Source: Tomocerus qinae (lineage: Eukaryota > Arthropoda > Collembola > Entomobryomorpha > Tomoceridae). Taken from it: DNA of 64,000 nucleotides. Shown here in pieces: positions 14,215 through 45,139 of this stretch. A program made the position numbers and the translations under genes. Every line of letters starts with the position of its first letter. Within the stretch, counting starts at the first letter, position 1. The stretch covers positions 80,972,001-81,036,000 of the forward strand of contig CM034546.1 in the NCBI GenBank assembly GCA_020055645.1, given 5' to 3'. Under the pieces are notes generated by a model that had not been told where the DNA came from, made no database searches, and worked only from the letters and a program-made list of their open reading frames with translations.

Positions 14215-14385
14215 GGGGCAGGCACATATCCAGAAATTTGGTCAAGGGGAGGCGCAACGTAAAATAATGTCAAAAAGCGAAAATCTTTGTAATTTTTGGC
14301 CTTTTTTGGAAAAATTCTTCTCTTTCTCAGATTTAGGGGGTGCGGTGCGCACCAACCCCGCCTACTGGATACGTGCTTGTGATGG
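14215..14385 (+). repeat. Fragment of a dispersed repeat shared with the palindrome arms
   Basis: GGCACATATCCAG, the TTTCTCAGATTTAGGGGG motif and the ending ACTGGATACGTGCTTG match words found at 19500-19570 and at 31200-31270, so this is a fragment of the same repeat family. Confidence 0.6.
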
Positions 14386-14774: not shown

Positions 14775-16727
14775 ATGAACAGAATAACTCTCACCTTGTC
14801 ACTTTTGGCAATATTTTGTGGCCTTCATGTAATAACGATATATGTAAATTGATTTTTCACAATTTTGAACCCACTTTTGTCATTGCATAATTCTTTGTTT
14901 TTAATTTCACAGGAGATCAATGGCCTGAAGAAGGACTGCAGAAGCATTGTATCCGATTTAAACAAAAGGGAAATTTTAGGTATATCTACATGTACCAAAG
15001 AAATGAGAAGCACCTTCAAAAATGTCAGAGACAAAATCGCTAAATCTACCGTAAGAAAACTTTTTTTCTACCTTTTTTTAAACGACTTCAATTATAATAT
15101 ATTTGAGTTTGTTTAGGTATCGTAAAAAACTGAAAAATTTACAAACCAAAAGAAAGCGAAACGTGGATACCCAAATTAATAAAAACATTTAAACGCTTTT
15201 TATATAGATTGTGCCAATATTATGGTTTTATTATCATTAGTGAATGGATGATCAATGTTATTTATTATGATTTATTATGCACTTAACTAGAACATGAATC
15301 CATCGAATATCCTTGAATAATCTTTTAAATATATTACAGTGTATCATGAAGTGTGTCCTGAAGAAAGAAAAAATTGTAAGTTTTTACCATCAACCATCTT
15401 TAACTAACATAATAATATATTATCAACAAAGGTAGGAAACTTTTAATTACAATATTACTGTGATAAGCTAACTGAGAATGGCGAGTTCAGCCTGGAAAAC
15501 ATTGATGCATTTTTTAAACGAGAATTCCCAGAAGATTTGCACGCTAAAATTAAAGCCTTAGTTGATCCATGCATCGAACAACATGGTAAGTATAACACTT
15601 TTAATGTTTATAACAGTTATAATCCCTATTTACATAATATTGTACTCCATTAGTTTTTTTAATTACTTTTATTATTATCTTTTTTTTTCCTTATAAATCA
15701 CCCCAATACGTTCTAAAATCGAAGAGATGTTCAATAATTTATGATTTGAAAATGAATCTCTCAATTTGTCCTTGTCCATAAATACTATTAACGTTTGGAT
15801 CGACGTTAACCGCATTTCTATACGCATTTCACACTATCAATTAATTTGTGCGCTTATGAAGGCAATAATATCATACGTTTCAACTCCAAAATAGATTTAT
15901 TTAGCTTGTAGCCACTATGTAAATGGTATTGTAGTGGTAAATAATATTTTGTACATTTGCTAGATACAATTGTGATATTGTGAGAAGGGGATATAATATG
16001 TCGGCAGACTAGCGTGGGAATATTTATTATCATGTTACTTACTTTTCTGTGAGAAGATTACGTAATTGAAATTAATTAGGTAGTGTGAATATTTCACAAT
16101 AGCTAATTAGACATGGTAAATTATTATGCATTAGATTTTTGTGTACTATGTGTACTACTTACGTCCACTAAGGATAACTTTGCTTGAGAATGGTCGTTTA
16201 GTTGTCCTTGTAATTTCCTTATGGTTGTATCTTGGGTCTTTACCATTTCATTATTTACATACTGGAATTGCTAAATAAACTTTATAAATTTTAAATATAA
16301 ATATAAATTTTAGGTGGAAACTTGGACGACAACGAAGAATTCTGCAAGTCCTACGATCCGGCTATAAAATGTTTCAGCACAAAACTACCCCTGGTATGTA
16401 CCTATACTATTTTACTATGTTTTATTTTCAAACCCTATGTGTATCCCATTATTAAACTTGTTAACCTTGAAAGTTAACACAAGTAGCCAAAGGTAAGGTA
16501 TATCAGATTCTTTAAAATATAATGCTTTTTGAAGAACCATGAAGGTATAAAACCCATGTTAACCATTTTTTTTACCTCGTTTGTACAACATTTATTCTCA
16601 CGGACGCGTGTAAATACAGGTTTTCTGGTTTTATTACTTCTTGAACTTTAATTTAGTTAGAAGTTATTGATGATTGAAATAGGAGTTCCTGGTATACTAT
16701 TTTTTTAAATTTCAGTTTTGCAAGTGA
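14775..16727 (+). CDS. Odorant-binding protein (PBP/GOBP family), six exons
   Basis: Exons are 14775-14828, 14913-15050, 15340-15375, 15468-15585, 16314-16393 and 16716-16727. All introns are GT-AG and the phases agree, giving 145 residues. Residues 1-18 form a hydrophobic signal peptide (SLLAIFCGLH). The family pattern is clear: C65-X3-C69, C111, then C126-X8-C135, with ENGEFSLENI after the third helix; C69 to C111 is 41 residues and C111 to C126 is 14. The first cysteine is C27 or C45; C45 and C144 are additional to the usual six, so a fourth disulfide is possible. OBPs are secreted carriers of small hydrophobic ligands, often in sensillum lymph but also elsewhere. The gene sits tail to tail with the amylase pseudogene, 320 bp apart. 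Exon 4's acceptor (GATAAG/CTAACTG) is the least certain junction. Family assignment is strong; the ligand is unknown. Confidence 0.86.
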
Positions 16728-17046: not shown

Positions 17047-17270
17047 TTATAATTTTGCCTGCAGAAAAAACGTTAGATTAGTGTTGTCTCAAATCAAAAT
17101 TCCATGTACATTTTAGCTAACCTGTGTATGAATCGCTATAACTCCGTTGAAAGCATTACTAGCCAAGTTTATAAACGCCCAACCACCTTGAGCGACATTA
17201 ATAATATTCCCTGTACTCTGTACACTGTCCATTGACAATGTCACCGGATATAACGTCGCAATATTCACCT
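17047..17270 (-). pseudogene. Alpha-amylase pseudogene, last two exons
   Basis: Exon 10 (17058-17047, after CTGCAG) encodes AKL and a stop, the canonical amylase C-terminus. Exon 9 (17123 to about 17270) matches the intact gene: EYCDVISGDIVNGQCT, VAQGGWAFINL and GVIAIHTQ before a GT donor. A 7-base insertion after QCT (a GTACAGA duplication) shifts the frame. The 5' end of the exon is lost at the edge of a GGGTTTTTT-rich repeat. The upstream exons of the same pseudogene begin at 33540, about 16.3 kb away, across the giant palindrome. Confidence 0.9.
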
Positions 17271-17965
17271 GGGTTGGGGTTTTTTGGCAAAAAACCCACC
17301 CCGCTTTACTTAAAAAACCCCGGGTTTATTAGGTTTTTTGGGTTTTTTACAAAACATACAAAAATTTGCACTACAGCTCCATCTAGACACGCAATACATA
17401 CTAATTTCTATTCAAAAATGTAAACAAATGCATAATCAGGTGGAAACAAATATTATAGCTTCTGCACTTCTACTTCTAGTTTTATGTATACTTTAGTCAT
17501 TGCATTGTGAAGATTATGTTTATAATATTGTTGTACAGATAATTTCAATTTATCACTTACATATTCATTACTGTAATGCTTTGCAAATAAAGCTTCAAAT
17601 TAACAAAGGAATAATTTCATAAAGTCCATATAATCAGTAAAATATTATAATGCTTAATATTTCACTAGTTTTTATCAAACAGTAATAATGATATAGGTGT
17701 TCACAAAAATACTGGATTAGCTACGTTACAACATAATAAAATTAAACTTTTATGCTCTAATTTTTCTTTTCATTACGTAAGTAATAAAAAGACACGGTTG
17801 TTGTGATTGTCAGCTGTAGTTTTCATATATGGTATAGTATAGGCTTGTATTTATACCTATAGTTATATAGAAAACCCTTAAACCCAAAAAACCCTAAAAA
17901 ACCCAAAAAACCCGGGGTCGAGGGTTTTTTCCTAAAATAGCCGGGTTTTTCGATACCTTGATGCG
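17262..17965. mobile_element. Small repeat with GGGTTTTTT-type inverted ends
   Basis: The left end (GGGGTTTTTTGG... CCCCGGGTTTATTAGG, 17270-17350) and right end (17875-17955: ACCCTAAAAAACCC, GGGTCGAGGGTTTTTT) are inverse to each other, with an AT-rich interior. It interrupts exon 9 of the amylase pseudogene. The outer break of the giant palindrome (17511) falls inside it, so the right arm carries only part of this repeat (32815-33254). Confidence 0.65.
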
Positions 17966-18373
17966 CCAGGACTTTAAGCTCCGGGTACCGCAGATTTGGA
18001 AATCTCTAATGATCATCAAAATACATGTAAAAATTGCTTTTCAACTCTTGGAATTCTGTTTAAAGTTCTTACCCGATTTTCTTGTGTGGTACATTTTTGG
18101 AATCCTGAATATAATGTCGACCATCACAATGTATAAAATATACGATATACATTAATGGTATAATAGTATGCTCAATGAGTTACTCTAATAGTCAAAAAAT
18201 ACTTAAAATTTCATCTTACTACTACCTAGGGTCAATAGGCATCGAAAAAATTTTAATTTCCAGTGTAACAGGCCCCGCCCACCGGCTAATTTCCACACTT
18301 CAGCTCCGCCAATTAGCCACGCCCCCGAATGGATCGTGACATTCTATCAGCTGAGAACTCGTAAGCTCCTCCT

Positions 18374-18955
18374 ACACTCTTAGAAGTTCACGTTAAAATG
18401 GACTAACGTTGTTCCGAAAATGTTATCATTAACATTATAAAGAGTCAAGCTAACATTAAAATAATGTAGCTTGACTTTTCAAATAACATTTTGTTCACTG
18501 TCAAGTATATTTCACATCAATTCAGGTGAAATTAACATTTTTAAACTGTAATACAAGTAACAGTTTTCATAATGTTAATGATAACATTATATCCAGTCAA
18601 AATAACGAAATAAAATGTTAACCATAATCCATGCAAATCAAATACAGCTAAGTAGCCCCATTTTCCTCAAGAACAGTTACAGTACAGTGGTAGTAGGCTC
18701 CAGTAACTGGTGCGAAGGTAAGGAGAACGTTTCCTACGTTGGAAATTGTTTTTTCATGGCTTACATTATATACTGTTAATTTTTTACAGCAACTAATGTA
18801 AATTATTAACTTTCAATAATGTTACATTATCAACATTATTTAATCATGTTATTTTAACACAAAATAATGTAGGACACAAAAAACAGGAGAAATTACTTGA
18901 AATCACGTTGATTTCAACCTAATCTCATGTAGGGATTTGTAAGAGTGTACTTTGG
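18374..18955. mobile_element. MITE with CACTCTTA ends and TA target (left arm)
   Basis: It begins TA-CACTCTTAGAAG and ends GTAAGAGTG-TA, giving a TA duplication and 8-bp terminal repeats. The interior is built from repeated TAACATTAT/ATAATGTTA words in both orientations. The mirror copy is at about 31815-32392. A TA target suggests a Tc1/mariner-type source, but no transposase is present. Confidence 0.7.
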
Positions 18956-19029
18956 GGGCGGGGCGAGGGCCGATTTCCACAGCAACCATGCAAGTTGCAA
19001 GAGATTTTCGGTGCCTGAGTCAATATGGT

Positions 19030-19400
19030 TGTATTAAACAAGGACGTATTTAGGGATGGGCTTTACGGGCTGAAGTCCCCCCCCCCGAAAAAGGGAATTT
19101 TTTCCTCAAAATAGTAAAAAATTTCGCGATTATAGGCCATTTTTGACTTATTTCTTTCAAAAAATGTCAAAAATTAAATATATATATACTTGAAAAATCT
19201 ATAGGAAATCTAGCCCCCTCCGAAACTCAGTTCTCCATACGTGCTTGGTATTAAAATATTGGCGATCGGTAACATACTCTGGCCACCCAATAGGGTCACG
19301 AGGGGTCTGGGGTATAAGGTAACGTCACTTTGAGAGGGGCGCTGCACCCCCTCCCCCACTGGACACGTCCAAGCACGCACACACGTTCAAATTTTACTCT
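19030..19400. repeat. Dispersed repeat with CCCCCC/CTCCGAAACTCAG motif (left arm)
   Basis: The segment with GGCTGAAGTCCCCCCC, then CCCCCTCCGAAACTCAG and ATACGTGCTTGG is shared in mirror image at 31375-31730. It is non-coding. Confidence 0.6.
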
Positions 19401-19589
19401 TTTTCGAGTACAGGAGAACAAAACCTATAGCAAGCCGTAACAGAAGGCGACCATGAGTACATTTTTGGTAGAATGATGGTAGAAATAGGATTGATTGCCA
19501 AGCACATATCCAGTAGGGGGTGGAGGGGAGCTCAGCGTCCCCTAAATCTGAGAAAAAGAGGATTTATTCTTTTTCGCACTTGGCGCGAA

Positions 19590-20150
19590 TATGTTTTATT
19601 TTATTTATTTAACATCATTAACTCGCCTGAAAAGGCAGCTATAGAATCGCACAGTCCGTTTGTCCGTCCGTCCGTTTACACGATAACTTTTGAAGATATT
19701 GATGGATTTCAACTAAATTTGACAAAGACATTGCCTATGGACCTGTGACAAAGCCTATTGAAAATGGGCCAGCACATTGATCCATAGGTTGCTGAGATGC
19801 CGCGCGCTCACTTTGTCTTCATTTTAATAGTCAAAATGGAAATATGGCATTGCTTTTCATTATGACAGTCAATATTAACCGATTTTGATTTTCTGTTTAT
19901 TTTCAGCCAAAGCCAACAATTATCTACTTTGATTTTCTGTTGATTTTCATAGTGAACATTATTCTATTATTTTCTGTTGATTTGCATAGTGAACATTATT
20001 CTATTATTTTCTGTTCATTTTCATAGGCAATCTTTATCTATTTTGAGTTTCTGTTGATTTTCATAGTCAACATTTATCTACTATGAGTTTCTGTTGATTT
20101 TCATAGTCAACAATTATCTATTTTGATTTTCTGTCGATTTTCATCAGCAA
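19590..20150 (+). repeat. CGGACGG-family repeat with 40-bp tandem tail (left arm)
   Basis: It contains CGCCTGAAAAGGCAGCTATA, TCCGTCCGTCCG and TTGAAGATATTGATGG, then CACAGG/CAAAGCC and a tandem array of TCTGTTGATTTTCATAG units (19870-20150). Copies of the conserved part also lie at 30930-31165, 47353-47520 and 50560-50790. Copies of the tandem part lie at 30617-30890 and 49985-50280. Confidence 0.85.
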
Positions 20151-20159
20151 TTACGGGTT

Positions 20160-20920
20160 TGGGCTCTACTGCCGCCTAATCTTTTCTTAATCTCTTACTC
20201 GAGATTGGTAATCCGGAAAAAGGTGAGGGTAGGGACGGCGAAGGTTCAGGTAGCGGCTCAGGTAGCAAACGAAAGTCCCAGGGTAGTAAGACTTTTCCAG
20301 CATACCCAAAAATTGTAAGCATTGGAGTACTTACAATTAAGTGTTCAGGTTTACCTAATGCTACTGTTGCTAGCCGATGCTGCACGCTGGCTTGATTCAT
20401 GGTTCTATTCTACACATTCTACAGTATATCTTCTGTGCATTGTTTGCTTTGTATTTACACTATTACACTACTAGTAATAATAAATTTCTACCATTGCCCC
20501 ATAATCAATGATATCCATAAATATGTATTATATGTAAATCTAAAACTAAACTTGCACAAAAACAATGCTGTTTTGTTTTTTAATTATGACTTATTTGTGA
20601 CTGCCATTAATATTGCATAATTTTTACTTATTATATTTATGAAAGACAATAATATAGTAATATAGTAATGTTATAGCTTTTTTGATACGGGAAGTGATAA
20701 GCTTACTGGTTGCAACTTGTAGCAACGCCCAACGAATACTACAATACAATTACACGGTTTAACTAATGCATAATGTTGTAAACATGAAAAAATTAAATAA
20801 TTAAAAATGGTTAGTCTAATGACAACCAAGAATGATGGTAAGTACTTATAGCTTAAATTTTAGTATTATTTGGACGAATATATCATCAGCTTGTCAATTC
20901 CAGTATTTGATAGTTTGGGT
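20160..20920 (+). repeat. Module A, copy 1 (plus orientation)
   Basis: This is the inner end of the left arm. Inverse copies lie at about 23752-24507, 24512-24965 (partial) and 29845-30612. It carries two opposed short frames that are open in every full copy: one of 74 codons (MNQASVQHRLATVALGKPEH...) and one of 73 codons (MVLFYTFYSISSVH...). It is a diverged homologue of module B (same GGTTCAGGTAGCGG core), so A and B share an ancestor. No known protein family is recognised. Confidence 0.8.
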
Positions 20921-21956
20921 ATTATTATATTTAGTTACATTGAAAATTAACAAGTATTGTATATTTTATTATTTTATTATATTACTTTAAGATAAAGTAG
21001 AAAAAACTTATTGTAGTTCAGCGTTGTTAGAAGTTGAAAACGTAAGTTTACTTCCAGCATCGAAATTTTTTTTTTATACTGCCTAAAATGACATGGACAT
21101 TATTAGAGTTTATTATTGTCTTTCATAAATATAATGAGTAAAAATTCAAGCAATATTAATGGCAATCAGAAATAAGCCATAATTAAAAAACAAAACAGCA
21201 TTGTTTTTTGTGCAAGTTTAGTTTTAGATTTACATATAATACATATTTATGGATATCAGTGATTATGGGGCAATGGTAGAAGTTTATTATAGTTACTAGC
21301 GTAATAGTGTAAATGTAAAGGCAGTAATGTAAAGCAAGCAATGCACAGAAGATGTACTGTAGAGTAGAACCATGAATCAAGGCAGCCAGCGCACATACTT
21401 CACCTAGTGTAGGGACTGGTGGCCATTTAAGAACCACACTGCTTAACAACGCAGTTCCCTACTTAAATATTTCCGATCGGTTTTTGACGTATACTGGTAC
21501 GACCTGGAGCAATGATATATACATCAGTAGAATTGTATTGTCTTAATTAACAATATATGTAAGTTACAAGATCCGCATAGATCCGTTGCTAATGTTATAG
21601 CCATTTGAAATTCGGTTATTTAACATTAGAGAGATAGGAAAAAGTCAAATCCGCTCTTTCTGGCACGAAATGCATGGCCATTTCAGTAGGCCTTAGTGAA
21701 CAATGTGCAGTGTGCAGCATCGGCTAGCAACAGTATAGCATTAGGTAAACGTGAACACTTAATTATAAGTACTCCCAGTCCTTTACCTGTGCTTACAATT
21801 TTTGGGTGTGCTGGAAAGGTTTCACTACCCTGGGCCTTTTGTTTGTTACCTGAACCGCTACCTGAACCTTCGCCGTCCCTTCCCTCACCTTTTTCCGGAT
21901 TACCAATTCCGAGAAGGATTTTAAGGAAAGACTTACGGGCAGATCTTACCACATCC
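20913..21956 (+). repeat. Module B, copy 1 (plus orientation), 1044 bp
   Basis: It runs from GTTTGGGTATTATTATATTT to ATCTTACCACATCC and is repeated head to tail at 21957-22999. Two opposed frames persist in the copies: 88 codons (MLSSVVLKWPPVPTLGEVCA...) and about 90-100 codons (GEGRDGEGSGSGSGNKQ... on one strand, LPEPLPEPSPSLPSPFSG on the other). Function and family are unknown. Being open on both strands may simply reflect low stop content. Confidence 0.85.
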
Positions 21957-22999
21957 GTTTGGGTATTATTATATTTAGTTACATTGAAAATTAACAAGTA
22001 TTGTATATTTTATTATTTTATTATATTACTTTAAGATAAAGTAGAAAAAACTTATTGTAGTTCAGCGTTGTTAGAAGTTGAAAACGTAAGTTTACTTCCA
22101 GCATCGAAATTTTTTTTTATACTGCCTAAAATGACATGGACATTATTAGAGTTTATTATTGTCTTTCATAAATATAATGAGTAAAAATTCAAGCAATATT
22201 AATGGCAATCAGAAATAAGCCATAATTAAAAAACAAAACAGCATTGTTTTTTGTGCAAGTTTAGTTTTAGATTTACATATAATACATATTTATGGATATC
22301 AGTGATTATGGGGCAATGGTAGAAGTTTATTATAGTTACTAGCGTAATAGTGTAAATGTAAAGGCAGTAATGTAAAGCAAGCAATGCACAGAAGATGTAC
22401 TGTAGAGTAGAACCATGAATCAAGGCAGCCAGCGCACATACTTCACCTAGTGTAGGGACTGGTGGCCATTTAAGAACCACACTGCTTAACAACGCAGTTC
22501 CCTACTTAAATATTTCCGATCGGTTTTTGACGTATACTGGTACGACCTGGAGCAATGATATATACATCAGTAGAATTGTATTGTCTTAATTAACAATATA
22601 TGTAAGTTACAAGATCCGCATAGATCCGTTGCTAATGTTATAGCCATTTGAAATTCGGTTATTTAACATTAGAGAGATAGGAAAAAGTCAAATCCGCTCT
22701 TTCTGGCACGAAATGCATGGCCATTTCAGTAGGCCTTAGTGAACAATGTGCAGTGTGCAGCATCGGCTAGCAACAGTATAGCATTAGGTAAACGTGAACA
22801 CTTAATTATAAGTACTCCCAGTCCTTTACCTGTGCTTACAATTTTTGGGTGTGCTGGAAAGGTTTCACTACCCTGGGCCTTTTGTTTGTTACCTGAACCG
22901 CTACCTGAACCTTCGCCGTCCCTTCCCTCACCTTTTTCCGGATTACCAATTCCGAGAAGGATTTTAAGGAAAGACTTACGGGCAGATCTTACCACATCC
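21957..22999 (+). repeat. Module B, copy 2 (direct tandem of copy 1)
   Basis: It is nearly identical to 20913-21956, differing in the length of a poly-T tract near 22110. It ends at CACATCC, where the sequence abruptly turns into the reverse complement. Confidence 0.93.
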
Positions 23000-24507
23000 C
23001 GTGCCAGAAAGAGCGGATTTGACTTTTTCCTATCTCTCTAATGTTAAATAACCGAATTTCAAATGGCTATAACATTAGCAACGGATCTATGCGGATCTTG
23101 TAACTTACATATATTGTTAATTAAGACAATACAATTCTACTGATGTATATATCATTGCTCCAGGTCGTACCAGTATACGTCAAAAACCGATCGGAAATAT
23201 TTAAGTAGGGAACTGCGTTGTTAAGCAGTGTGGTTCTTAAATGGCCACCAGTCCCTACACTAGGTGAAGTATGTGCGCTGGCTGCCTTGATTCATGGTTC
23301 TACTCTACAGTACATCTTCTGTGCATTGCTTGCTTTACATTACTGCCTTTACATTTACACTATTACGCTAGTAACTATAATAAACTTCTACCATTGCCCC
23401 ATAATCACTGATATCCATAAATATGTATTATATGTAAATCTAAAACTAAACTTGCACAAAAAACAATGCTGTTTTGTTTTTTAATTATGGCTTATTTCTG
23501 ATTGCCATTAATATTGCTTGAATTTTTACTCATTATATTTATGAAAGACAATAATAAACTCTAATAATGTCCATGTCATTTTAGGCAGTATAAAAAAAAA
23601 ATTTCGATGCTGGAAGTAAACTTACGTTTTCAACTTCTAACAACGCTGAACTACAATAAGGTTTTTCTACTTTATCTTAAAGTAATATAATAAAATAATA
23701 AAATATACAATACTTGTTAATTTTCAATGTAACTAAATATAATAATACCCAAACTATCAAATACTGGAATTGACAAGCTGATGATATATTCGTCCAAATA
23801 ATACTAAAATTTAAGCTATAAGTACTTACCATCATTCTTGGTTGTCATTAGACTAACCATTTTTAATTATTTAATTTTTTTCATGTTTACAACATTATGC
23901 ATTAGTTAAACCGTGTAATTGTATTGTAGTATTCGTTGGGCGTTGCTACAAGTTGCAACCAGTAAGCTTATCACTTCCCGTATCAAAAAAGCTATAACAT
24001 TACTATATTACTATATTATTGTCTTTCATAAATATAATAAGTAAAAATTATGCAATATTAATGGCAGTCACAAATAAGTCATAATTAAAAAACAAAACAG
24101 CATTGTTTTTGTGCAAGTTTAGTTTTAGATTTACATATAATACATATTTATGGATATCATTGATTATGGGGCAATGGTAGAAATTTATTATTACTAGTAG
24201 TGTAATAGTGTAAATACAAAGCAAACAATGCACAGAAGATATACTGTAGAATGTGTAGAATAGAACCATGAATCAAGCCAGCGTGCAGCATCGGCTAGCA
24301 ACAGTAGCATTAGGTAAACCTGAACACTTAATTGTAAGTACTCCAATGCTTACAATTTTTGGGTATGATGGAAAAGTCTTACTACCCTGGGACTTTCGTT
24401 TGCTACCTGAGCCGCTACCTGAACCTTCGCCGTCCCTACCCTCACCTTTTTCCGGATTACCAATCTCGAGTAAGAGATTAAGAAAAGATTAGGCGGCAGT
24501 AGAGCCC
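23000..24507 (-). repeat. Inverted copy: truncated module B then module A
   Basis: From CGTGCCAGAAAGAGCGG the sequence is the reverse complement of about 21668-20150. The A-B junction of the left arm is therefore preserved as a unit. It ends at GAGCCCAAACCC, exactly the outer edge of module A. Confidence 0.92.
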
Positions 24508-24965
24508 AAACCCACCCAAACTATCAAATACTGGAATTGACAAGCTGATGATATATTCGTCCAAATAATAGTAAAATTTAAGCTATAAGTACTTACCATC
24601 ATTCTTGGTTGTCATTAGACTAACCATTTTTAATTATTTAATTTTTTTCATGTTTACAACATTATGCATTAGTTAAACCGTGTAATTGTATTGTAGTATT
24701 CGTTGGGCGTTGCTACAAGTTGCAACCAGTAAGCTTATCACTTCCCGTATCAAAAAAGCTATAACATTACTATATTACTATATTATTGTCTTTCATAAAT
24801 ATAATAAGTAAAAATTATGCAATATTAATGGCAGTCACAAATAAGTCATAATTAAAAAACAAAACAGCATTGTTTTTGTGCAAGTTTAGTTTTAGATTTA
24901 CATATAATACATATTTATGGATATCATTGATTATGGGGCAATGGTAGAAATTTATTATTACTAGT
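24508..24965 (-). repeat. Partial module A, inverted
   Basis: It starts CCCACCCAAACTATC and follows the reverse complement of about 20920-20468, stopping at ACTAGT. The same CCCACCCAAACTATC start occurs at 29844, so both junctions probably derive from one event. Confidence 0.9.
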
Positions 24966-25927
24966 GGATGTGGTAAGATCTGCCCCTAAGTCTTTCCTTA
25001 AAATCCTTCTCGGAATTGGTAATCCGGAAAAAGGTGAGGGAAGGGACGGCGAAGGTTCAGGTAGCGGTTCAGGTAACAAACAAAAGGCCCAGGGTAGTGA
25101 AACCTTTCCAGCACACCCAAAAATTGTAAGCACAGGTAAAGGACTGGGAGTACTTATAATTAAGTGTTCACGTTTACCTAATGCTATACTGTTGCTAGCC
25201 GATGCTGCACACTGCACATTGTTCACTAAGGCCTACTGAAATGGCCATGCATTTCGTGCCAGAAAGAGCGGATTTGACTTTTTCCTATCTCTCTAATGTT
25301 AAATAACCGAATTTCAAATGGCTATAACATTAGCAACGGATCTATGCGGATCTTGTAACTTACATATATTGTTAATTAAGACAATACAATTCTACTGATG
25401 TATATATCATTGCTCCAGGTCGTACCAGTATACGTCAAAAACCGATCGGAAATATTTAAGTAGGGAACTGCGTTGTTAAGCAGTGTGGTTCTTAAATGGC
25501 CACCAGTCCCTACACTAGGTGAAGTATGTGCGCTGGCTGCCTTGATTCATGGTTCTACTCTACAGTACATCTTCTGTGCATTGCTTGCTTTACATTACTG
25601 CCTTTACATTTACACTATTACGCTAGTAACTATAATAAACTTCTACCATTGCCCCATAATCACTGATATCCATAAATATGTATTATATGTAAATCTAAAA
25701 CTAAACTTGCACAAAAAACAATGCTGTTTTGTTTTTTAATTATGGCTTATTTCTGATTGCCATTAATATTGCTTGAATTTTTACTCATTATATTTATGAA
25801 AGACAATAATAAACTCTAATAATGTCCATGTCATTTTAGGCAGTATAAAAAAAAATTTCGATGCTGGAAGTAAACTTACGTTTTCAACTTCTAACAACGC
25901 TGAACTACAATAAGTTTTTTCTACTTG
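24966..25927 (-). repeat. Module B, inverted, cut by the Penelope-like element
   Basis: It is the reverse complement of about 21956-20995. It ends at TTTTTTCTACTT, where the Penelope-like element begins. The last 80 bp or so of the module are missing, so the insertion came with a deletion. Confidence 0.92.
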
Positions 25928-26512
25928 TAATCTTCGAAATGAAGGTTAAATTAATTATGCAAATTAATTGTCCACTGTAACTGCGAGCAAAATAATTGGA
26001 TCTAAAAGTATTTCATTTATTCAGCAATCTAGATTTCGTTAATCTTCTTCAGGCTGAAAATGAATCAAAAGGGAAAGTTAAACATTTAATTTTATAATTG
26101 ACAGATAATTTGTAAAGATGTGACAGAATATATGTTTAAACATTTAAATATCCAAATCCATAATTTTAATTTTAATTAGTCCATGAGTATATATAATATA
26201 TGCATACATGATCCATTGGTGGGAATCAAACTCAAATCAGAGATAGATAGAAAGTATATTACCGTCATAAATGAAAACGAAATTTTCTTTTTTAGGCTAT
26301 CCAAATTAGTATCTAATTATTAAACAATTTCGAAAGGAATTAAATTTTATAATAATTGAAATTTCCAATTAGTCAAAAAAGCGAATAAGCTGGCTGTTTT
26401 GTCAATGAGTCAGCATAAAATGACATTTTGAAAAAGGCGCTAAAAGTAAGTTCATGTTCCTCTTCTTCAATAGAAGATACACAGTTTATATATTCACAGT
26501 ACGTACAAATTT

Positions 26513-28486
26513 TTACCACTTTGTATAGTTTAACAAGCTATTAATTTTGCAGTAGGCAATTTTAATTTTCATTTCCTTAGCGATACATTCATAATCGTTA
26601 TCCACACACTTTTTCAATTCTTCTAGTAAAGATATTTTAATTATTTTACCGAATGACATAATACAATTATAGAATGGATATATTAAATAAGAAGTATCAT
26701 TATTTACATTATGCAATATATTCGTGGAATAGTCCATTACATTAATATTGTGTTTTATAAGGATATCAGGGTTATTGATACTTAGATTACGAATTAATAG
26801 TTCACTTTTAGGGATTAATAAGTTTAATCTTTCTACTGAAAGTAATTTATTTATGGCTTTAATTAAAATATTTTTAGGGTAGCATCTATTTTCAAATTTT
26901 TCGAATAATATTGTCAATTCCTTAATTCTATCTTCTCTCAAAGAACAAGATTTTATTATTCTTAGTCCTTGTGAATAAGGTAAAGATTCTTTTAGATGTT
27001 TAGGTGTATTCGAGTAATAATGTAAAAAAAGATGCTTTGACATTGGCTTTCTGTATAGTTTAGTTTGAATAATATTATTTTTTGTCAAAAAAATCTCTAA
27101 ATCTAAAAATGGTAAAGATTTATCTGAATAATTGTAAGTGAATTTTAGATAAGGATGTTTACATAAATTTTGTAACCAAATCTTGAGATCTGCAATATTG
27201 GTGCTATTGACAATTAGAAATATGTCATCCAGGAATCTAGTACGAAAAATAATTTCATCTTTATCCTTAAACATCTCTCTCAATTCTTCATAAACACTAA
27301 TATTAGCTATACTACAAGATGCACTACCTCCCATTTGAATTCCACGATGTTGGACAAAATATTCGTTTTCATATCGCACATAATTAAAATCCAGACTTAA
27401 ATCTAATATAATTTTTAATTCATTTAATGTTAAATTAAATGGTAGGGATATATTATTTTTATACTTTACAAAATTTTCACAACAGAATCGTTTACAATTT
27501 CCAATTTTTAGATTTGTGTACAAAGATTCTATGTCGATTGTAATTAACGTGTATTTATAAGTAGGATTTAATTGTAAATTGTTTAATAATATCAATAAAT
27601 GAGTCGAATCTAGCAATAAGTCAGGAATAAATAACATAATAGGTTGTAATATGTTGTCAGCTATTTGACTTATTGGTTTATTAAATGTCTTGATTGTACT
27701 AGAAATTGGTCGACCTGGGGGGAATGTTTCATAATTTTTATGAATTTTTGGTAAATTGGAAAATAGTGCTGGTTGTGGATGTAAAGGTATCAAGGTAAAC
27801 AAATTAACTTCTTTTGGTAGTATTTTATCCAAACATCTTACTTTATCCTTAAAATTTAGAAACGCAAAATCAAAATGTGACTTTGTTGTAGGAAAGTAAG
27901 TATGAGTATCTAAAAGTTGTCTCATTACTTCAGTATCATAGTCAGATTTATTCATCCAACAAATTCCTGCATTTTTATCTGCCTGTGTGATAACAATTTT
28001 ATTTACTTTACAGTAATTTTTTAATTGAGTCAATAATTTTATATTAAATAACGATTTATAAAATGTATATTTTTTAACTTTCTCAACAATATCTCGGGCT
28101 GCATTCTTATTTATAAAAATTTTTTGTTCATCGGAACAGTGAAGTAAGGACTTTGGTTCTAATTTCTGATTCTGTTTTTTAATTTTAGATGAAATAATTC
28201 TAAAATTTGAATGTTCCCTAATATCAGGGTGAATTTTAAAATAAGCTATCCACGATAGTTTTCGGATTGACTCATTGACTGCATCTTCTATTCTTTTGAA
28301 GTTAGGAAATGTTGAAACACAGAAACCTAAACCTAATGATAGTATTTTTTTGAATTTCAAAGGAATTGGATTTTGTGTTAAATTGTGAATGATATCTGGG
28401 GTTAATTTTAAATGACAAAATATTTTATATAACTTACTTGTTAGATTTTTACTAATAGGTATTCTTTCGTTGAAAAAATGGCTCAT
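26513..28486 (-). CDS. Penelope-like reverse transcriptase
   Basis: The ORF is intact, 657 codons. N-terminal ADKNAGICWMNKSDYDTEV (about residue 170) and LPKIHKNYETFPPGRPIS (about 245) are typical of Penelope-like RTs. Motif A is IDIESLYTNL (about 316), motif B HRGIQMGGSASC (about 380) and motif C RFLDDIFLIVN (about 418) with the DD pair. PFLDLEIFL and YRKPMSKHLFLHYYSNTP follow. The C-terminal 130 residues show no GIY-YIG endonuclease (no GIY...YIG pair), so it belongs among the endonuclease-less forms or has lost the domain. The enzyme would copy element RNA, possibly primed at DNA ends. All catalytic residues are present, so the RT could be active. The decayed copy at 5615-6847 is a relative. 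Confidence 0.88.
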   Translation of the reverse strand: MSHFFNERIPISKNLTSKLYKIFCHLKLTPDIIHNLTQNPIPLKFKKILSLGLGFCVSTFPNFKRIEDAVNESIRKLSWIAYFKIHPDIREHSNFRIISSKIKKQNQKLEPKSLLHCSDEQKIFINKNAARDIVEKVKKYTFYKSLFNIKLLTQLKNYCKVNKIVITQADKNAGICWMNKSDYDTEVMRQLLDTHTYFPTTKSHFDFAFLNFKDKVRCLDKILPKEVNLFTLIPLHPQPALFSNLPKIHKNYETFPPGRPISSTIKTFNKPISQIADNILQPIMLFIPDLLLDSTHLLILLNNLQLNPTYKYTLITIDIESLYTNLKIGNCKRFCCENFVKYKNNISLPFNLTLNELKIILDLSLDFNYVRYENEYFVQHRGIQMGGSASCSIANISVYEELREMFKDKDEIIFRTRFLDDIFLIVNSTNIADLKIWLQNLCKHPYLKFTYNYSDKSLPFLDLEIFLTKNNIIQTKLYRKPMSKHLFLHYYSNTPKHLKESLPYSQGLRIIKSCSLREDRIKELTILFEKFENRCYPKNILIKAINKLLSVERLNLLIPKSELLIRNLSINNPDILIKHNINVMDYSTNILHNVNNDTSYLIYPFYNCIMSFGKIIKISLLEELKKCVDNDYECIAKEMKIKIAYCKINSLLNYTKW

Positions 28487-28549
28487 GTTGTAAAAATGAC
28501 GATTTTTCTTTCTTCTTCTCGATTTTGTATTTCCACCAATGGCATCATC

Positions 28550-29628
28550 CTATTTGATTCTGTTTAGTAGCTCAGTGATCGATTGGGGTTCTACATTTTC
28601 TTTGATTTGGAAGTTTTGTTTTTTTGCGTGTCTAAATTGTTGTGATGATGATTGTGATGAATGGCGAGGGGTATGTTGAAATTTTTGTTGAAGTTTAAAA
28701 CCTTTATTTTCATTTAGAGAATCTTCCTTCGATAAACGACGTTGGGCTTTACGGATTGGTCGGGTTTGAAACTGTTTGCTATTCCGTTTAGATTTTTGAG
28801 TTTCGGTGGAGGTTGTTTGACGTTGGTTAACTTTATCTTGCATTTTAAGAACACTCAAATCAGCACATTGTAGGAAATTGTCATATTCTGATAAAATTGT
28901 CTCTTTTTGAAATGACTCTTTTCCATTCAAGATCCTTTCTTGAATTTTTTCTGCATGTCTGTTGTATGCAGATTGAGGTGGACAAGATTCATCTTCCTTT
29001 CTCCATTGTGGCATTGAATCTACGACTTTACAAGTTCTAGATGACCAGCCGATGCATTTAATATTAAAAGACTTCACGAATTCAATTTCTGCCTTAAAAT
29101 AGTTGGCCGCAAAAAAGTGTTTGATTATTTTAGTAATTCCAACTATAGGAGAATTATTTACCAGTAAGTCTGATTTGATGGCATTGTAGTTACGTAGAAT
29201 TAATAACTCTGAGACGAATTCAGATCCCGCGTTGGCTGATTCCTGAAGTTGGAGCATCAAACCCTTTTTCAGTGAAGTGAATTTATTTAATGTTGCAGAC
29301 GGAAGAAGTTGAAAGCACGGAATAGAAAGCTTCGCGAGAGGATTTAAGACAGCCAGTCTTCTAGCAGTAGCTTCCTGCATATTATTTTGGAAGTATTTAG
29401 ACTGCATGTGAGACATGAAGTTCTTTATTAGTAGAATTTTAGTCGTATCTGAAATTTCTAGTTCGGTTTCTAATTGTAAGTGTTTCTTCAGTTTTTCAAC
29501 ATCTGGAATGACGGGTAGAATTTGAATTGAATTAAAGAGGTCAATATATTCAACGACAATTGGATCAGTATCTTCTCCCAAAAACTTATGGATGGCTAAT
29601 TTATTACTTGGATCTAATTATTCTAATT
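28550..29628 (-). CDS. ORF1 of the Penelope-like element, 5'-truncated
   Basis: It lies 63 bp upstream of the RT ORF on the same strand. The frame is open from about 29620 (LDPSNKLAIHKFLGED...) with no ATG before a methionine at about residue 51 of the 343-codon reading (MSHMQSKYF), so the true 5' end seems lost where the duplicated RT fragment was joined. The C-terminal third is rich in K, R, Q and S (KRNSKQFQTRPIRKAQRRL, HSSQSSSQQFRHAKKQ), which suggests nucleic-acid binding, like a Gag/ORF1 chaperone. I do not recognise a domain. The assignment to the element rests on position, strand and spacing. Confidence 0.6.
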
Positions 29629-29843
29629 AGTATCATAGTCAGATTTATTCATCCAACAAATTCCTGCATTTTTATCTGCCTGTGTGATAACAATTTTATT
29701 TACTTTACAGTAATTTTTTAATTGAGTCAATAATTTTATATTAAATAACGATTTATAAAATGTATATTTTTTAACTTTCTCAACAATATCTCGGGCTGCA
29801 TTCTTATTTATAAAAATTTTTTGTTCATCGGAACAGTGAAGTA
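29629..29843 (-). repeat. Direct duplicate of an internal RT segment
   Basis: Bases 29629-29843 repeat 27932-28146 in the same orientation at a constant offset of 1697. The copy ends inside the codon run and joins directly to the palindrome arm at CCCACCC. Confidence 0.95.
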
Positions 29844-29844
29844 C

Positions 29845-30612
29845 CCACCCAAACTATCAAATACTGGAATTGACAAGCTGATGATATATTCGTCCAAATA
29901 ATACTAAAATTTAAGCTATAAGTACTTACCATCATTCTTGGTTGTCATTAGACTAACCATTTTTAATTATTTAATTTTTTTCATGTTTACAACATTATGC
30001 ATTAGTTAAACCGTGTAATTGTATTGTAGTATTCGTTGGGCGTTGCTACAAGTTGCAACCAGTAAGCTTATCACTTCCCGTATCAAAAAAGCTATAACAT
30101 TACTATATTACTATATTATTGTCTTTCATAAATATAATAAGTAAAAATTATGCAATATTAATGGCAGTCACAAATAAGTCATAATTAAAAAACAAAACAG
30201 CATTGTTTTTGTGCAAGTTTAGTTTTAGATTTACATATAATACATATTTATGGATATCATTGATTATGGGGCAATGGTAGAAATTTATTATTACTAGTAG
30301 TGTAATAGTGTAAATACAAAGCAAACAATGCACAGAAGATATACTGTAGAATGTGTAGAATAGAACCATGAATCAAGCCAGCGTGCAGCATCGGCTAGCA
30401 ACAGTAGCATTAGGTAAACCTGAACACTTAATTGTAAGTACTCCAATGCTTACAATTTTTGGGTATGCTGGAAAAGTCTTACTACCCTGGGACTTTCGTT
30501 TGCTACCTGAGCCGCTACCTGAACCTTCGCCGTCCCTACCCTCACCTTTTTCCGGATTACCAATCTCGAGTAAGAGATTAAGAAAAGATTAGGCGGCAGT
30601 AGAGCCCAAACC
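29845..30612 (-). repeat. Module A in the right palindrome arm
   Basis: This is the reverse complement of 20153-20920, including the same opposed 74- and 73-codon frames (30368-30592 plus, 30369-30148 minus). Confidence 0.93.
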
Positions 30613-30616
30613 CGTA

Positions 30617-31165
30617 ATTGCTGATGAAAATCGACAGAAAATCAAAATAGATAATTGTTGACTATGAAAATCAACAGAAACTCATAGTAGATAAATGTTG
30701 ACTATGAAAATCAACAGAAACTCAAAATAGATAAAGATTGCCTATGAAAATGAACAGAAAATAATAGAATAATGTTCACTATGCAAATCAACAGAAAATA
30801 ATAGAATAATGTTCACTATGAAAATCAACAGAAAATCAAAGTAGATAATTGTTGGCTTTGGCTGAAAATAAACAGAAAATCAAAATCGGTTAATATTGAC
30901 TGTCATAATGAAAAGCAATGCCATATTTCCATTTTGACTATTAAAATGAAGACAAAGTGAGCGCGCGGCATCTCAGCAACCTATGGATCAATGTGCTGGC
31001 CCATTTTCAATAGGCTTTGTCACAGGTCCATAGGCAATGTCTTTGTCAAATTTAGTTGAAATCCATCAATATCTTCAAAAGTTATCGTGTAAACGGACGG
31101 ACGGACAAACGGACTGTGCGATTCTATAGCTGCCTTTTCAGGCGAGTTAATGATGTTAAATAAAT
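30617..31165 (-). repeat. CGGACGG-family repeat with tandem tail (right arm)
   Basis: This is the mirror of 19590-20150. The tandem units (TGAAAATCAACAGAAAAT) occupy 30617-30890. The conserved end, with AACGGACGGACGGAC, follows. Confidence 0.88.
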
Positions 31166-31814
31166 AAAATAAAACATATTCGCGCCAAGTGCGAAAAAGA
31201 ATAAATCCTCTTTTTCTCAGATTTAGGGGGGCGCTGGCCCCCCCTCCACCCCCTACTGGATATGTGCTTGGCAATCAATCCTATTTCTACCATCATTCTA
31301 CCAAAAATGTACTCATGGTCGCCTTCTGTTACGGCTTGCTATAGGTTTTGTTCTCCTGTACTCGAAAAAGAGTAAAATTTGAACGTGTGTGCGTGCTTGG
31401 ACGTGTCCAGTGGGGGAGGGGGTGCAGCGCCCCTCTCAAAGTGACGTTACCTTATACCCCAGACCCCTCGTGACCCTATTGGGTGGCCAGAGTATGTTAC
31501 CGATCGCCAATATTTTAATACCAAGCACGTATGGAGAACTGAGTTTCGGAGGGGGCTAGATTTCCTATAGATTTTTCAAGTATATATATATTTAATTTTT
31601 GACATTTTTTGAAAGAAATAAGTCAAAAATGGCCTATAATCGCGAAATTTTTTACTATTTTGAGGAAAAAATTCCCTTTTTTCGGGGGGACTTCAGCCCG
31701 TAAAGCCCATCCCTAAATACGTCCTTGTTTAATACAACCATATTGACTCAGGCACCGAAAATCTCTTGCAACTTGCATGGTTGCTGTGGAAATCGGCCCT
31801 CGCCCCGCCCCCAA

Positions 31815-32392
31815 AGTACACTCTTACAAATCCCTACATGAGATTAGGTTGAAATCAACGTGATTTCAAGTAATTTCTCCTGTTTTTTGTGTCCTACATT
31901 ATTTTGTGTTAAAATAACATGATTAAATAATGTTGATAATGTAACATTATTGAAAGTTAATAATTTACATTAGTTGCTGTAAAAAATTAACAGTATATAA
32001 TGTAAGCCATGAAAAAACAATTTCCAACGTAGGAAACGTTCTCCTTACCTTCGCACCAGTTACTGGAGCCTACTACCACTGTACTGTAACTGTTCTTGAG
32101 GAAAATGGGGCTACTTAGCTGTATTTGATTTGCATGGATTATGGTTAACATTTTATTTCGTTATTTTGACTGGATATAATGTTATCATTAACATTATGAA
32201 AACTGTTACTTGTATTACAGTTTAAAAATGTTAATTTCACCTGAATTGATGTGAAATATACTTGACAGTGAACAAAATGTTATTTGAAAAGTCAAGCTAC
32301 ATTATTTTAATGTTAGCTTGACTCTTTATAATGTTAATGATAACATTTTCGGAACAACGTTAGTCCATTTTAACGTGAACTTCTAAGAGTGT
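31815..32392. mobile_element. MITE with CACTCTTA ends (right arm)
   Basis: This is the mirror copy of 18374-18955, with the same TA-CACTCTTA ends. The two copies are part of the palindrome and not independent insertions. Confidence 0.7.
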
Positions 32393-33254
32393 AGGAGGAG
32401 CTTACGAGTTCTCAGCTGATAGAATGTCACGATCCATTCGGGGGCGTGGCTAATTGGCGGAGCTGAAGTGTGGAAATTAGCCGGTGGGCGGGGCCTGTTA
32501 CACTGGAAATTAAAATTTTTTCGATGCCTATTGACCCTAGGTAGTAGTAAGATGAAATTTTAAGTATTTTTTGACTATTAGAGTAACTCATTGAGCATAC
32601 TATTATACCATTAATGTATATCGTATATTTTATACATTGTGATGGTCGACATTATATTCAGGATTCCAAAAATGTACCACACAAGAAAATCGGGTAAGAA
32701 CTTTAAACAGAATTCCAAGAGTTGAAAAGCAATTTTTACATGTATTTTGATGATCATTAGAGATTTCCAAATCTGCGGTACCCAGAGCTTAAAGTCCTGG
32801 CGCATCAAGGTATCGAAAAACCCGGCTATTTTAGGAAAAAACCCTCGACCCCGGGTTTTTGGGTTTTTTAGGGTTTTTTGGGTTTAAGGGTTTTCTATAT
32901 AACTATAGGTATAAATACAAGCCTATACTATACCATATATGAAAACTACAGCTGACAATCACAACAACCGTGTCTTTTTATTACTTACGTAATGAAAAGA
33001 AAAATTAGAGCATAAAAGTTTAATTTTATTATGTTGTAACGTAGCTAATCCAGTATTTTTGTGAACACCTATATCATTATTACTGTTTGATAAAAACTAG
33101 TGAAATATTAAGCATTATAATATTTTACTGATTATATGGACTTTATGAAATTATTCCTTTGTTAATTTGAAGCTTTATTTGCAAAGCATTACAGTAATGA
33201 ATATGTAAGTGATAAATTGAAATTATCTGTACAACAATATTATAAACATAATCT

Positions 33255-33539
33255 AAATAAAATCAAATTATAAGTAAATAAATTGCTACCCCTAACGCAC
33301 CAGGTGGGCGAGGGGGAGAAGTTCCTGAAATACATTCTATCCATCTTACAATATTTCCCCGGAATATACACTAGCTTTATTTATAACAGGGCCTGTGACC
33401 GGCTAGTTTTAAATATAGATCTTGTCATTTTCAGAATTAACTAAATTGTCTAGTTGAGACAAATTAAAGCAAAAGATATTGCCGATTCAATAAGTACCTA
33501 TCTTGATATTGTTACTACACGCATATCATGTAAATTTAC
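33255..33539 (-). other. Intron 8 part of the amylase pseudogene next to the palindrome
   Basis: Unique sequence between the palindrome's right end and exon 8. It shows no repeat flank matching the bases left of 17511, so no target-site duplication supports a simple insertion of the palindrome. Confidence 0.5.
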
Positions 33540-34581
33540 CTGAAAGGTACCTTGAAGAGTGACCACATCGTTGTTAATGGCAATAAATCCTTTATCTCCT
33601 CTTGAGAAAACGATTTGGTCTCTGTTATTGTCCCACCAGTTTTTGACAGCCGTTCCTACAAAACTGAATATTAGACTTTTGGGATCTTTTGAAATTCCAT
33701 CTTCACCAATTTTATGCCAGTTTAATATTCGGATTTAGAAATGTAATAAATGATTGTAACACAAATTCCAGCAACGACATTTCTGAACTTCGCCATTCCG
33801 TACATTTCTCTCCACCTGTGCTCACAAACCCAACTGTTACCACAAGTGTTATCTGGGTTGATGGCAACAGATACAATATTGTATTCATTGTCATGAGGTG
33901 GTCCAATCTTAAATTTGGAGTTTTTGAAGTTTAACAATTTATTCCAGTGTTTGTAAAAGAAAACCATAGATTACATTACTACCCAATTGTTAACGTCTTG
34001 ACCTCCAACGATGCTTTGTTCCCAAAAGTAGGAAGAGATGATTTGGGCAGATCCATAGGGCCAGGCAAGCATAAAAGCTGTTGCCATTTTGTATATTCTG
34101 TATTTTCGTATGTATGTATTTTGTTATGTAACGTCAGTACCATATCATTCAGAACAATTCCTGAACCTCTCTGGTTATCATGATTATCCATAAATACCAA
34201 AGCATGCTCACTGGGCATCATCCCCCAAGCTTCTCCTAATATTGAATACGATATCAATAATTAGTCTCTAACTTAAAACCACTTATTATTATGAATGATA
34301 AAATTTAGCGGGAAATATATACCGTAATTTCTTAGCCATTTTAATTTTTGATTATTTTCTTTTTGAAAAACTTCGCACAGTTTTGGAATAATTTAGCCAG
34401 GTTTATTATTCGTAAAATTATACCAAAAACAATGACTTCTTGGTAAATAAATGGCCGCGATCCAGGAGGAAATCCTTGGCTTGTGGGCAAGTCATTCAGT
34501 CGAGTAGTAATCGCCAGAAGATCTTCTGGCCACATGTGCTTGGCAGCGTCAATTCTACAATATTTATTAATCACAGTGTCA

Positions 34582-36340: not shown

Positions 36341-38875
36341 GTGTCGGGGATTTATTACTATTGTACTGCTTGCACGGTTCGTATTGAATACAAAAGCCGG
36401 CTACGGAGTGCAGATACATTAAACAATCTGGCTTATCTTACTGAGTATGCAAATTACATTGAGGAGCAACATGGACATGAAGTTGATTTTGATAAAGATG
36501 GAGTTCTTTGTGATGAATGTTATTTAAAATTACGTCAATTTCATTTCCATCGTATGAATGTGTCAAAAGTTTTAAAAGCTGTGGGAAATACTGAAATTCA
36601 AAGAGATGTCTTTCTTGAGCTGCCTATCATCATTTACCCAGACAGTCAATCGACAGTGGACTCGCAGGCCAGTACAGTATACGACGATAGTTGGCTGGAA
36701 AATTACAAGAACAGGGTTGACTCCCAGGCAAGTACGGTATACGATGATAGTTGGCTGGTAGATTACAAGAAAAGAGTTGACTCCCAGGCAAGTACGGTAT
36801 ACGACGATAGTTGGCTGGAGAATTACAATAAAACAGTTGAATACCAGACAAGTGACAATGGATTGCTACCCACTGAAAACAATTGGGACAACTATTTCTC
36901 TCAAAATTCGGACATTACTGAAAACTCATCTAATTCATCAAATCATTTCTCTCAAGATTCGAACACTACTACAGCCTCATCAAATTCATTAAACCATTCT
37001 ATTACCGACTCTACAGTTTTCGTTTTGCCGAAGCCAAAAGTTAGTGTTCGAGTATCGTCAATTGGATCAACGCAGCGTTACTGTTTCATATGTAAAAGCG
37101 TGAGCAAGCCGCGGAAAGTGATTCCTAAAAAAGCAATAACAAATCTTTGGTACAAAAGAAATATACTGATTCCTTTAGATAATCGATGCTGTAAGGAGCA
37201 CATCGATGAAAACCTACACTTCAATTCAGATGCAGAAAGTAAAATCGAAGCTACAAAGGATTCGATATTGATGAATGGATCCGATGTAAAACGATGGTTT
37301 TTAACGCTCACTAAAAATCCTGCATTTGATTCAAGATCATCAGTCAGCTTTGATTTAACTTCTCCATTCACATCTGAAGATTACAAAACACTTACTGGTT
37401 TATCCCGGGAGGAATTTGACCATGTTTTTTCAATCATAGGTACACACCTTAGAGGCAGTATAAATCGAACTAAACGAGATGCGTTAGGCATTTTTCTCAT
37501 GAAGTTGAGAACAAACTTATCTCAAGCAGCTCTGGCTATAATATTTGGAGTTAAATCGCAATGTCGAATCAGTGAGACATTTGAAGCAGTTCGATTGGTC
37601 TTATTAAAATATTATGTGAATAAATATTTAGGCTACGACCATATTACCCGAGATGAAGCTAAATTACATCAGTCCAAATTCGTACATGAATTATTTGAAG
37701 CGTCGGAAACCTCTATTTGTGCAATGGCAGATGGAACCTATTTATTTATAGAAAAGCCAAGCGATCATGAATTGCAAAAGAAAACGTTCTCCATGCATAA
37801 GCACCGAAATCTCGTAAAACCCATGTTGATTATGTTTCCTGATGGATACATCTTAAATTGTGAGGGACTATATTATGCAGATGGAAATAACAATGATTCA
37901 ACCATATTGAACTCTTTAGTGCAATCAGAAACAGGATTCTCTAACTTCTTTTGCCCGGAGGACTTTTTCATCTTGGACCGTGGATTTAGAGATTCTGTGC
38001 AACTGTTAAATGATAGAGGTTTCAAAACTTTCATGCCCAATCTGCTGCAAAAAAAGCAAGCCCAGTTTACAACATTTCAAGCCAATGAGTCCAGAAAAAT
38101 CACTATGAATCGATGGCTAAACGAGGCTAAAAATGGACATGTAAAAAAATTCAAAATGTTAAGGGATATAATTTCAGCATCTTATTTGCCTAAAATAGGT
38201 TCTCTCTATCGCATATGTTGCTCTTTTCTTAATGCTTATTCAAAACCGATCTTCAGAGACAGTGAAGAGATGATTCGACTGGCCAATAAAGTCATGGATA
38301 GAATGGCAATGGAAAACAAGTTACAGCATGATATTGAAGTGGTATGGAAATTAGAAAAGAAGCTAAGTTGCTGGATATCGGCATCTAAAGATTGTTTGGA
38401 AGAATTTCCCAAGTTAGAAGAAACAGATATCAAAGATATTACTCTTGGAACTTATCAACTTGATCAAGCTGTCTTATATACCAGGCGTCATTTAAAAGCT
38501 AATTCTGAAAAGGTCATTTTTATCCACAAGGAAATGACCAACTTAGTAAAGGCGAAAATAGAATCTCGGTATACCAAAGGTAAAGTCCACAACCTCTGGA
38601 TACAGTTCGATGCTAAGAAAAATGGTGAAAAATCTATTTTGGGATACTATTGTAAGTGTAGGGTTGGCAGTAGGACAATGGGCTGCTGCAGCCACGTAGC
38701 CTCAGTGCTGTGGTATTTTGGCTTCGCAAGATACAATGAAGTTGAGCTACTGGAGAAGGTTCGAGGATTGTCCGATAACGTTTTAGATGCAGCTGAAGCG
38801 TTACAGCGACAGTTAAATGGAAATTCGGGTGAAAATGAACATAGTTGGGAAGAAAACTCTATCGATGGAAATTAG
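36341..38875 (+). CDS. DDE transposase (PIF/ISL2EU-like) with C-terminal SWIM zinc finger
   Basis: The frame is open for 844 codons from a stop/acceptor-like TTTTTAAG; there is no ATG until about residue 72, so a 5' exon is likely. Order: CxxC...CxxC finger (C8, C11, C57, C60); three 20-residue repeats (VDSQASTVYDDSW, about 106-168); a C2CH-like finger (CFICKS...RCCKEHI, about 247-284); a DDE_Tnp_4-like catalytic core with ADGTY (D464), LDRGFRDS (D546) and RWLNEAKNG (E595); then a SWIM finger, CKC...CCSH, at about 771-785. Transposases of this group move DNA elements; SWIM fingers bind DNA or protein. The ORF is intact and all three catalytic residues are present. No terminal inverted repeats were found around it, so it may be an element whose ends I missed or a domesticated gene. 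It lies antisense in intron 1 of the amylase pseudogene. Confidence 0.8.
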   Translation: MSGIYYYCTACTVRIEYKSRLRSADTLNNLAYLTEYANYIEEQHGHEVDFDKDGVLCDECYLKLRQFHFHRMNVSKVLKAVGNTEIQRDVFLELPIIIYPDSQSTVDSQASTVYDDSWLENYKNRVDSQASTVYDDSWLVDYKKRVDSQASTVYDDSWLENYNKTVEYQTSDNGLLPTENNWDNYFSQNSDITENSSNSSNHFSQDSNTTTASSNSLNHSITDSTVFVLPKPKVSVRVSSIGSTQRYCFICKSVSKPRKVIPKKAITNLWYKRNILIPLDNRCCKEHIDENLHFNSDAESKIEATKDSILMNGSDVKRWFLTLTKNPAFDSRSSVSFDLTSPFTSEDYKTLTGLSREEFDHVFSIIGTHLRGSINRTKRDALGIFLMKLRTNLSQAALAIIFGVKSQCRISETFEAVRLVLLKYYVNKYLGYDHITRDEAKLHQSKFVHELFEASETSICAMADGTYLFIEKPSDHELQKKTFSMHKHRNLVKPMLIMFPDGYILNCEGLYYADGNNNDSTILNSLVQSETGFSNFFCPEDFFILDRGFRDSVQLLNDRGFKTFMPNLLQKKQAQFTTFQANESRKITMNRWLNEAKNGHVKKFKMLRDIISASYLPKIGSLYRICCSFLNAYSKPIFRDSEEMIRLANKVMDRMAMENKLQHDIEVVWKLEKKLSCWISASKDCLEEFPKLEETDIKDITLGTYQLDQAVLYTRRHLKANSEKVIFIHKEMTNLVKAKIESRYTKGKVHNLWIQFDAKKNGEKSILGYYCKCRVGSRTMGCCSHVASVLWYFGFARYNEVELLEKVRGLSDNVLDAAEALQRQLNGNSGENEHSWEENSIDGN
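36658..36845 (+). repeat. Three 60-bp in-frame coding repeats
   Basis: The unit encodes VDSQASTVYDDSWLENYKNR with small changes. Codon-level differences between units are few, so the expansion is recent or homogenised. Confidence 0.9.

Positions 38876-40566: not shown

Positions 40567-45139
<4,573 letters not shown>

Follow-up and report, generated by a model that had tools for sequence, protein, structure and literature searches.

A palindrome inside an amylase pseudogene of Tomocerus qinae, with a probable origin in aberrant transposition of a fold-back element

The window analyzed here, a stretch of 64,000 nt from Tomocerus qinae (GCA_020055645.1, CM034546.1 (contig C1):80972001-81036000), carries a large palindrome that has at its centre several pieces of a fold-back transposon (FB). 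The genome searched was the window's own (334 Mb, 115 contigs), and the structure was read from the assembled sequence alone by self-BLAST, genome searches and flank comparison. The palindrome separates exon 8 from exon 9 of an amylase gene (copy 1); both exons are on the minus strand and belong to the same gene copy. It had been placed inside an amylase pseudogene by a first-pass annotation of this DNA, and this location holds, with exon 9 to the left and exon 8 to the right and with two kinds of lesion in the gene: 35199-34707 is read in three frames where amylase copy 2 has one exon, and exon 9 is cut at about 17272 by a high-copy repeat called TE1. An open reading frame (ORF) of 844 aa with a DDE_Tnp_4 match and a weak SWIM match is also found between exon 1 and the later exons of copy 1 (36341-38875).

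The two arms (17511-20920 and, inverted, 29847-33254) are 99.62% identical over 3412 columns in self-BLAST, with 7 mismatches and 4 gap openings, which bears out the earlier description of near-identical 3.41-kb arms in mirror order. They differ by one isolated substitution (17982), by a cluster of changes (19529-19539) and in the length of several A and C runs. The cluster (31230-31240 in the right arm) falls in a G/C-rich hairpin, and neither arm clearly fits the relative at 14309-14379. Mirror symmetry extends past 20920/29847 since both arms run through FB as far as the right end of that element (21956 in the left arm, 24966 in the right one); the FB of the right arm is broken by the insertion of a Penelope-like retroelement (PLE), whereas that of the left arm has none. 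The outer part of the left arm, named A' (17511-20154), includes the right half of TE1. In the TE1 genome search the best 40 of 1633 candidates were scored and eight loci were cut out, two of them being the arms; TE1 runs across 17511 in all six other copies compared, five of which cover 17270/17274 to 17960/17961. The left break thus falls inside an older repeat that had entered exon 9, as had been claimed, and because TE1 spans 17511 in the six other copies, it is the left arm that is in its native place, the right arm being a copy with its start inside TE1. A larger transposon with 3.4-kb inverted ends was ruled out since the left break falls inside TE1. Additionally, 17961-18511 matched nothing but the two arms among the best 40 of 1633 candidates. 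No target duplication was found in a junction comparison of 17510/17511 with 33254/33255, in line with the first-pass annotation, and this absence, the native left arm and the start of the right arm inside TE1 support the in-place inverted duplication that it had put forward. A 40-bp minisatellite family occupies 19850-20144 and 49986-50390, and elsewhere it often borders PLE copies.

FB was searched for in the genome with 20155-21956, and the best 40 of 227 candidates were scored. At least 21 other copies are present among the matches listed; they align at 92-97% identity from FB position 1 as far as 1232-1253, and the alignment resumes at 1554. Because these copies have the left and right parts of FB contiguous, the join at FB 766/767 is natural and the two parts make up one element. 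The ends were precise in all 10 copies sampled from the 21 counted, each with a target duplication (8 bp in eight copies, 9 bp in two). The left part and the reverse complement of the right part are identical at 586 of 656 ungapped columns, these terminal inverted repeats (TIRs) make up most of the element, and no coding sequence was found within it. Judged by its long inverted repeats, its precise ends and the fixed length of its target duplication, FB is classed as a fold-back or long-TIR DNA transposon. A 317-bp insert is found in all four FB right-hand pieces at the locus (R1, R2 and R5 in full, R3 for its 276 bp) and in none of the 21 other copies counted among the best 40 of 227. The local FB pieces show 1-3 changes per compared pair, against a difference of 3-8% (92-97% identity) to the 21 other copies, and the arrangement would be either recent or kept alike by gene conversion; the data fit either. 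RNA fold-back structure gave no signal at the L-end, R-end and L-start (z -0.03, 1.36 and 1.02). Two FB copies on C1 (11648705-11650182 and 11696015-11697492) belong to a direct segmental duplication whose flanks are 99.9-100% identical for about 790 bp to either side.

Read on the plus strand, the centre passes from A' into FB (20155-21956) and then into FB 758/759-1802 (21957-22999), and everything beyond 22999 is inverted, in the order FB 1513-1, FB 766-316, FB 1802-841, PLE, GGG, FB 767-1 and A' (30614-33254) (Table 1). The four FB-to-FB junctions (21956/21957, 22999/23000, 24513/24514, 24965/24966) all lie at an exact FB end, and every FB terminus in the window (three right ends, three left starts) stands at the exact end base. 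An 8-bp sequence, GTTTGGGT, precedes the inner FB start (24514-24521) and also follows an FB right end (21957-21964), a match with a chance of about 1 in 65,000 at one given place by our own arithmetic; one FB accordingly sits within another, flanked by a target duplication of 8 bp, the length typical of the family. Outer and inner FB are copies of one local element since both carry the private 317-bp insert. The exact FB right end also forms two further joins, namely the mirror point 22999/23000 and 24966/24965. On the outer side, GCAATTAC stands left of FB in both arms, and none of the window's three FB right ends is followed by it, so that the original right flank is lost; the locus is thus an inverted duplication of A' with flank loss.

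Table 1. Features of the palindrome and its borders (positions in the window)
Feature	Position	Strand	Remarks
Exon 9 remnant, amylase copy 1	about 17116-17271	-	Left of palindrome; 17120-17271 is 77% identical to copy 2 exon 9 (40677-40821)
TE1, high-copy repeat cutting exon 9	17274-17960		Palindrome break 17511 inside; genomic copies
Outer left arm (A' with the right half of TE1)	17511-20154	+	Native; self-BLAST, genome search
FB, left arm copy	20155-21956	+	GCAATTAC as target duplication on the left (20147-20154); its partner on the right is lost
317-bp insert in FB	21392-21708 (FB 1238-1554)		Itself a repeat
Right remainder of outer FB	21957-22999	+	Starts with GTTTGGGT (21957-21964), stops at exact FB right end
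Inner FB, inverted, FB 1-1513	23000-24513	-	Joined to outer FB right end at 22999/23000 (mirror point); 99.8% to 20155-21667
Outer FB left part, inverted, FB 316-766	24514-24965	-	Ends in GTTTGGGT (24514-24521) beside inner FB start
FB right part, inverted, FB 841-1802	24966-25926	-	Exact right end joined to FB position 316
PLE, 5'-truncated, scrambled	25927-29843	-	In right-arm FB, replacing FB positions 4-840
PLE ORF2, reverse transcriptase (RT), 657 aa	26513-28486	-	46% identical to RT-like fragment 5891-6337
PLE ORF1, N-terminus missing	28553-29617	-	Frame opened at the truncation point has its first M at residue 70; an ATG lies upstream in the C7 copy
RT fragment, 215 bp	29629-29843	-	Direct repeat of 27932-28146, 100%
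GGG	29844-29846	-	Probably the initial 3 bp at the left end of the inner FB
Right arm: outer FB left part, FB 767-1	29847-30613	-	Ends in GTTTGGGT (29847-29854)
Right arm: A' copy and half of TE1	30614-33254	-	Self-BLAST
High-copy short repeat	33271-33417		16 bp from right break; 39 of 40 scored places are other genomic copies
Exon 8, amylase copy 1	about 33531-33659	-	Right of palindrome

The element in the right-arm FB is assigned to PLEs on the ORF2 motifs ADK.AG, LPKIHK, FLDD and YRKP, which we take to be PLE-like; ORF2 had no match in Pfam, NCBIfam or PDB sequences. The RT-like fragment 5891-6337 matches RVT_1 weakly (E 0.005), and 5595-6844 is an older, broken relative of the PLE RT that contains stops (45% aa identity in 353 columns). 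A GIY-YIG endonuclease was found neither by Pfam for two tail segments nor by eye in the translated tail, which is a weak test. Additionally, Rfam scans gave no hammerhead ribozymes, none of six motifs was found in a search for telomeric repeat pairs, and no relatives of the PLE RT were confirmed in viral contig and genome contig collections. In the PLE genome search (best 40 of 148 candidates scored) the exact 3' end is common to eight other copies, and TA follows in all eight reaching that end, with differing sequence thereafter; the palindrome copy has AA at this place. One copy, C1:22826985-22830238, shows 5 substitutions in 3254 bp, and its flanks, set against the A' family, are without target duplication. 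A partial tandem on contig C7 (109626-115498) consists of a 5'-truncated copy, a 292-bp spacer forming the start of the next copy, and a full copy with an ATG-started ORF1. No FB was found beside other PLE copies in the neighbourhoods compared, this locus excepted, so that the PLE here is an insertion into the right-arm FB. It would have arrived, most simply, after the duplication, since the FB pieces 20155-22999 and 23000-24965 are without PLE.

Taken together, these features are read as an inverted duplication at the DNA level that was started by aberrant FB transposition, to which we give a probability of roughly 60%. The sequence shows the FB with the private insert at the inner edge of A' and a second FB, with the same 317-bp insert, that entered it at GTTTGGGT with an 8-bp duplication. 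The shared private insert suggests a jump from one sister chromatid into the other, the sister being the simplest source. Transposase may then have acted on the ends of the sister copies, joining a cut right end to the sister, by which the flank would have continued backwards as a mirror strand (A''). This strand may have ended at 17511, through a break or a switch of the copying polymerase, and would have been sealed to 33255 without duplication. Of the two direct FB left parts in the left arm, one would have disappeared, either through recombination or within the same reaction, and the PLE would then have entered the FB of the right arm. Sister chromatid transposition in maize yields bridges, breaks, flanking inverted duplications and deletions, according to parts of PMC3744419 and PMC8225341.

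Several points weigh against this sequence of events, the order of which we infer. The outer junction 17511/33255 lies away from any FB end and has no target duplication, so that a second, non-transpositional step is needed. The right-end joins 22999/23000 and 24966/24965 lack a partner junction, and a target duplication is therefore not demonstrable for them. No transposase for FB turned up, although no search aimed at an autonomous partner was made. Another inverted FB pair (C3:8.616-8.640 Mb, 21 kb apart) has no mirrored flanks in the 1.5 kb compared on each side, and thus an FB-linked palindrome is not a frequent outcome on present evidence. The statement of the first-pass annotation that simple transposition does not explain the palindrome stands for the outer ends, but at the centre the transposon seems to be the engine, with all four FB junctions at exact FB ends and one pair flanked by the 8-bp duplication.

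Local copies rearranged in either orientation, the near absence of microhomology at most of the joins and the lack of an outer duplication would also fit template switching during replication or a break repaired by fold-back, events without transposase to which FB would merely lend homology or a hairpin, and its mutually inverted left and right parts (586/656 aligned columns) would suit such a role. We consider this rather improbable, as random switching has no reason to halt at exact FB ends in four of four FB-to-FB junctions and the nested FB pair carries a duplication of family length. An assembly error, either a fold-back read or mis-joined repeats, would be favored by the richness of the locus in repeats and by the near identity of the arms, and artefacts from fold-back or palindromic reads have been reported (PMC6218980, PMC12870357). 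Beyond the mirror, however, exon 8 of the same gene resumes in the right orientation, so that two independent false joins would be needed; a fold-back read would leave identical flanks to the left and right, whereas here exon 9 stands on one side and exon 8 of that gene on the other. Moreover, the interiors are unequal (the PLE and 837 bp of FB differ between the arms), private substitutions occur outside homopolymers (20300, 20863, 21006, 21936 and 17982), four FB pieces carry private substitutions, and the nested FB insertion keeps the 8-bp rule of its family, all of which make a faulty assembly unlikely. That the array is a single PLE cDNA made by template jumping with read-through into the 5' flank is hardly credible in spite of the exact 3' end, the 5'-truncated copies and the tail-to-tail arrangement discussed for PLEs in parts of PMC3846280, for FB, with its target duplications, is a DNA transposon in its own right, and the PLE a simple insertion in one FB. 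This Penelope model was the initial one and was dropped, the left and right parts of FB being one DNA transposon and the other PLE copies compared being without either part.

Large near-identical palindromes are usually attributed to replication errors or assembly; the junctions at this locus let an order of events be proposed and point to transposon ends. Tentatively, and well short of even odds, FB might make large palindromes in a self-propagating manner, jumping into a sister copy to form a compound element whose exposed right ends would attack FB again and drag the flank into an inverted duplication, in the manner of double Ds in maize. If this were true, such loci would also be landing places for endonuclease-less PLEs at broken ends. 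If the explanation by FB transposition is right, a survey of long palindromes in other genomes, asking whether the mirror point falls on an exact transposon end, would gauge how often transposition and not fold-back replication makes them.

Elsewhere in the window, about 50 near-identical units of 20 bp occupy 3251-4240, and 15447-15650 is exon-like with a PBP/GOBP match below threshold.

Regarding known systems, FB resembles the fold-back (FB) and long-TIR non-autonomous DNA transposons in its long inverted repeats, precise ends, 8-9-bp duplications and many copies; it is placed here in the class only, without superfamily, and differs in that no coding sequence was found inside. The PLE shares with Athena and Coprina, endonuclease-deficient PLEs of the kind described in parts of PMC6431247, its two ORFs, a size of about 4 kb, the absence of a visible GIY-YIG and the partial tandem on C7. 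Unlike these, it is interstitial and not telomeric here, and its family membership is putative, being based on motifs of ORF2, which has no library match. As for the locus as a whole, exact ends at junctions, a flanking inverted duplication, lost flank and 8-bp duplications are shared with maize Ac/Ds and with Drosophila P hybrid element insertion, as far as these are covered in parts of PMC3744419 and PMC8225341. It differs from both systems in being a single case with no known transposase, in its outer end, which is not a transposon end, in its two unpartnered right-end joins, and in its transposon ends, which re-enter the same element.

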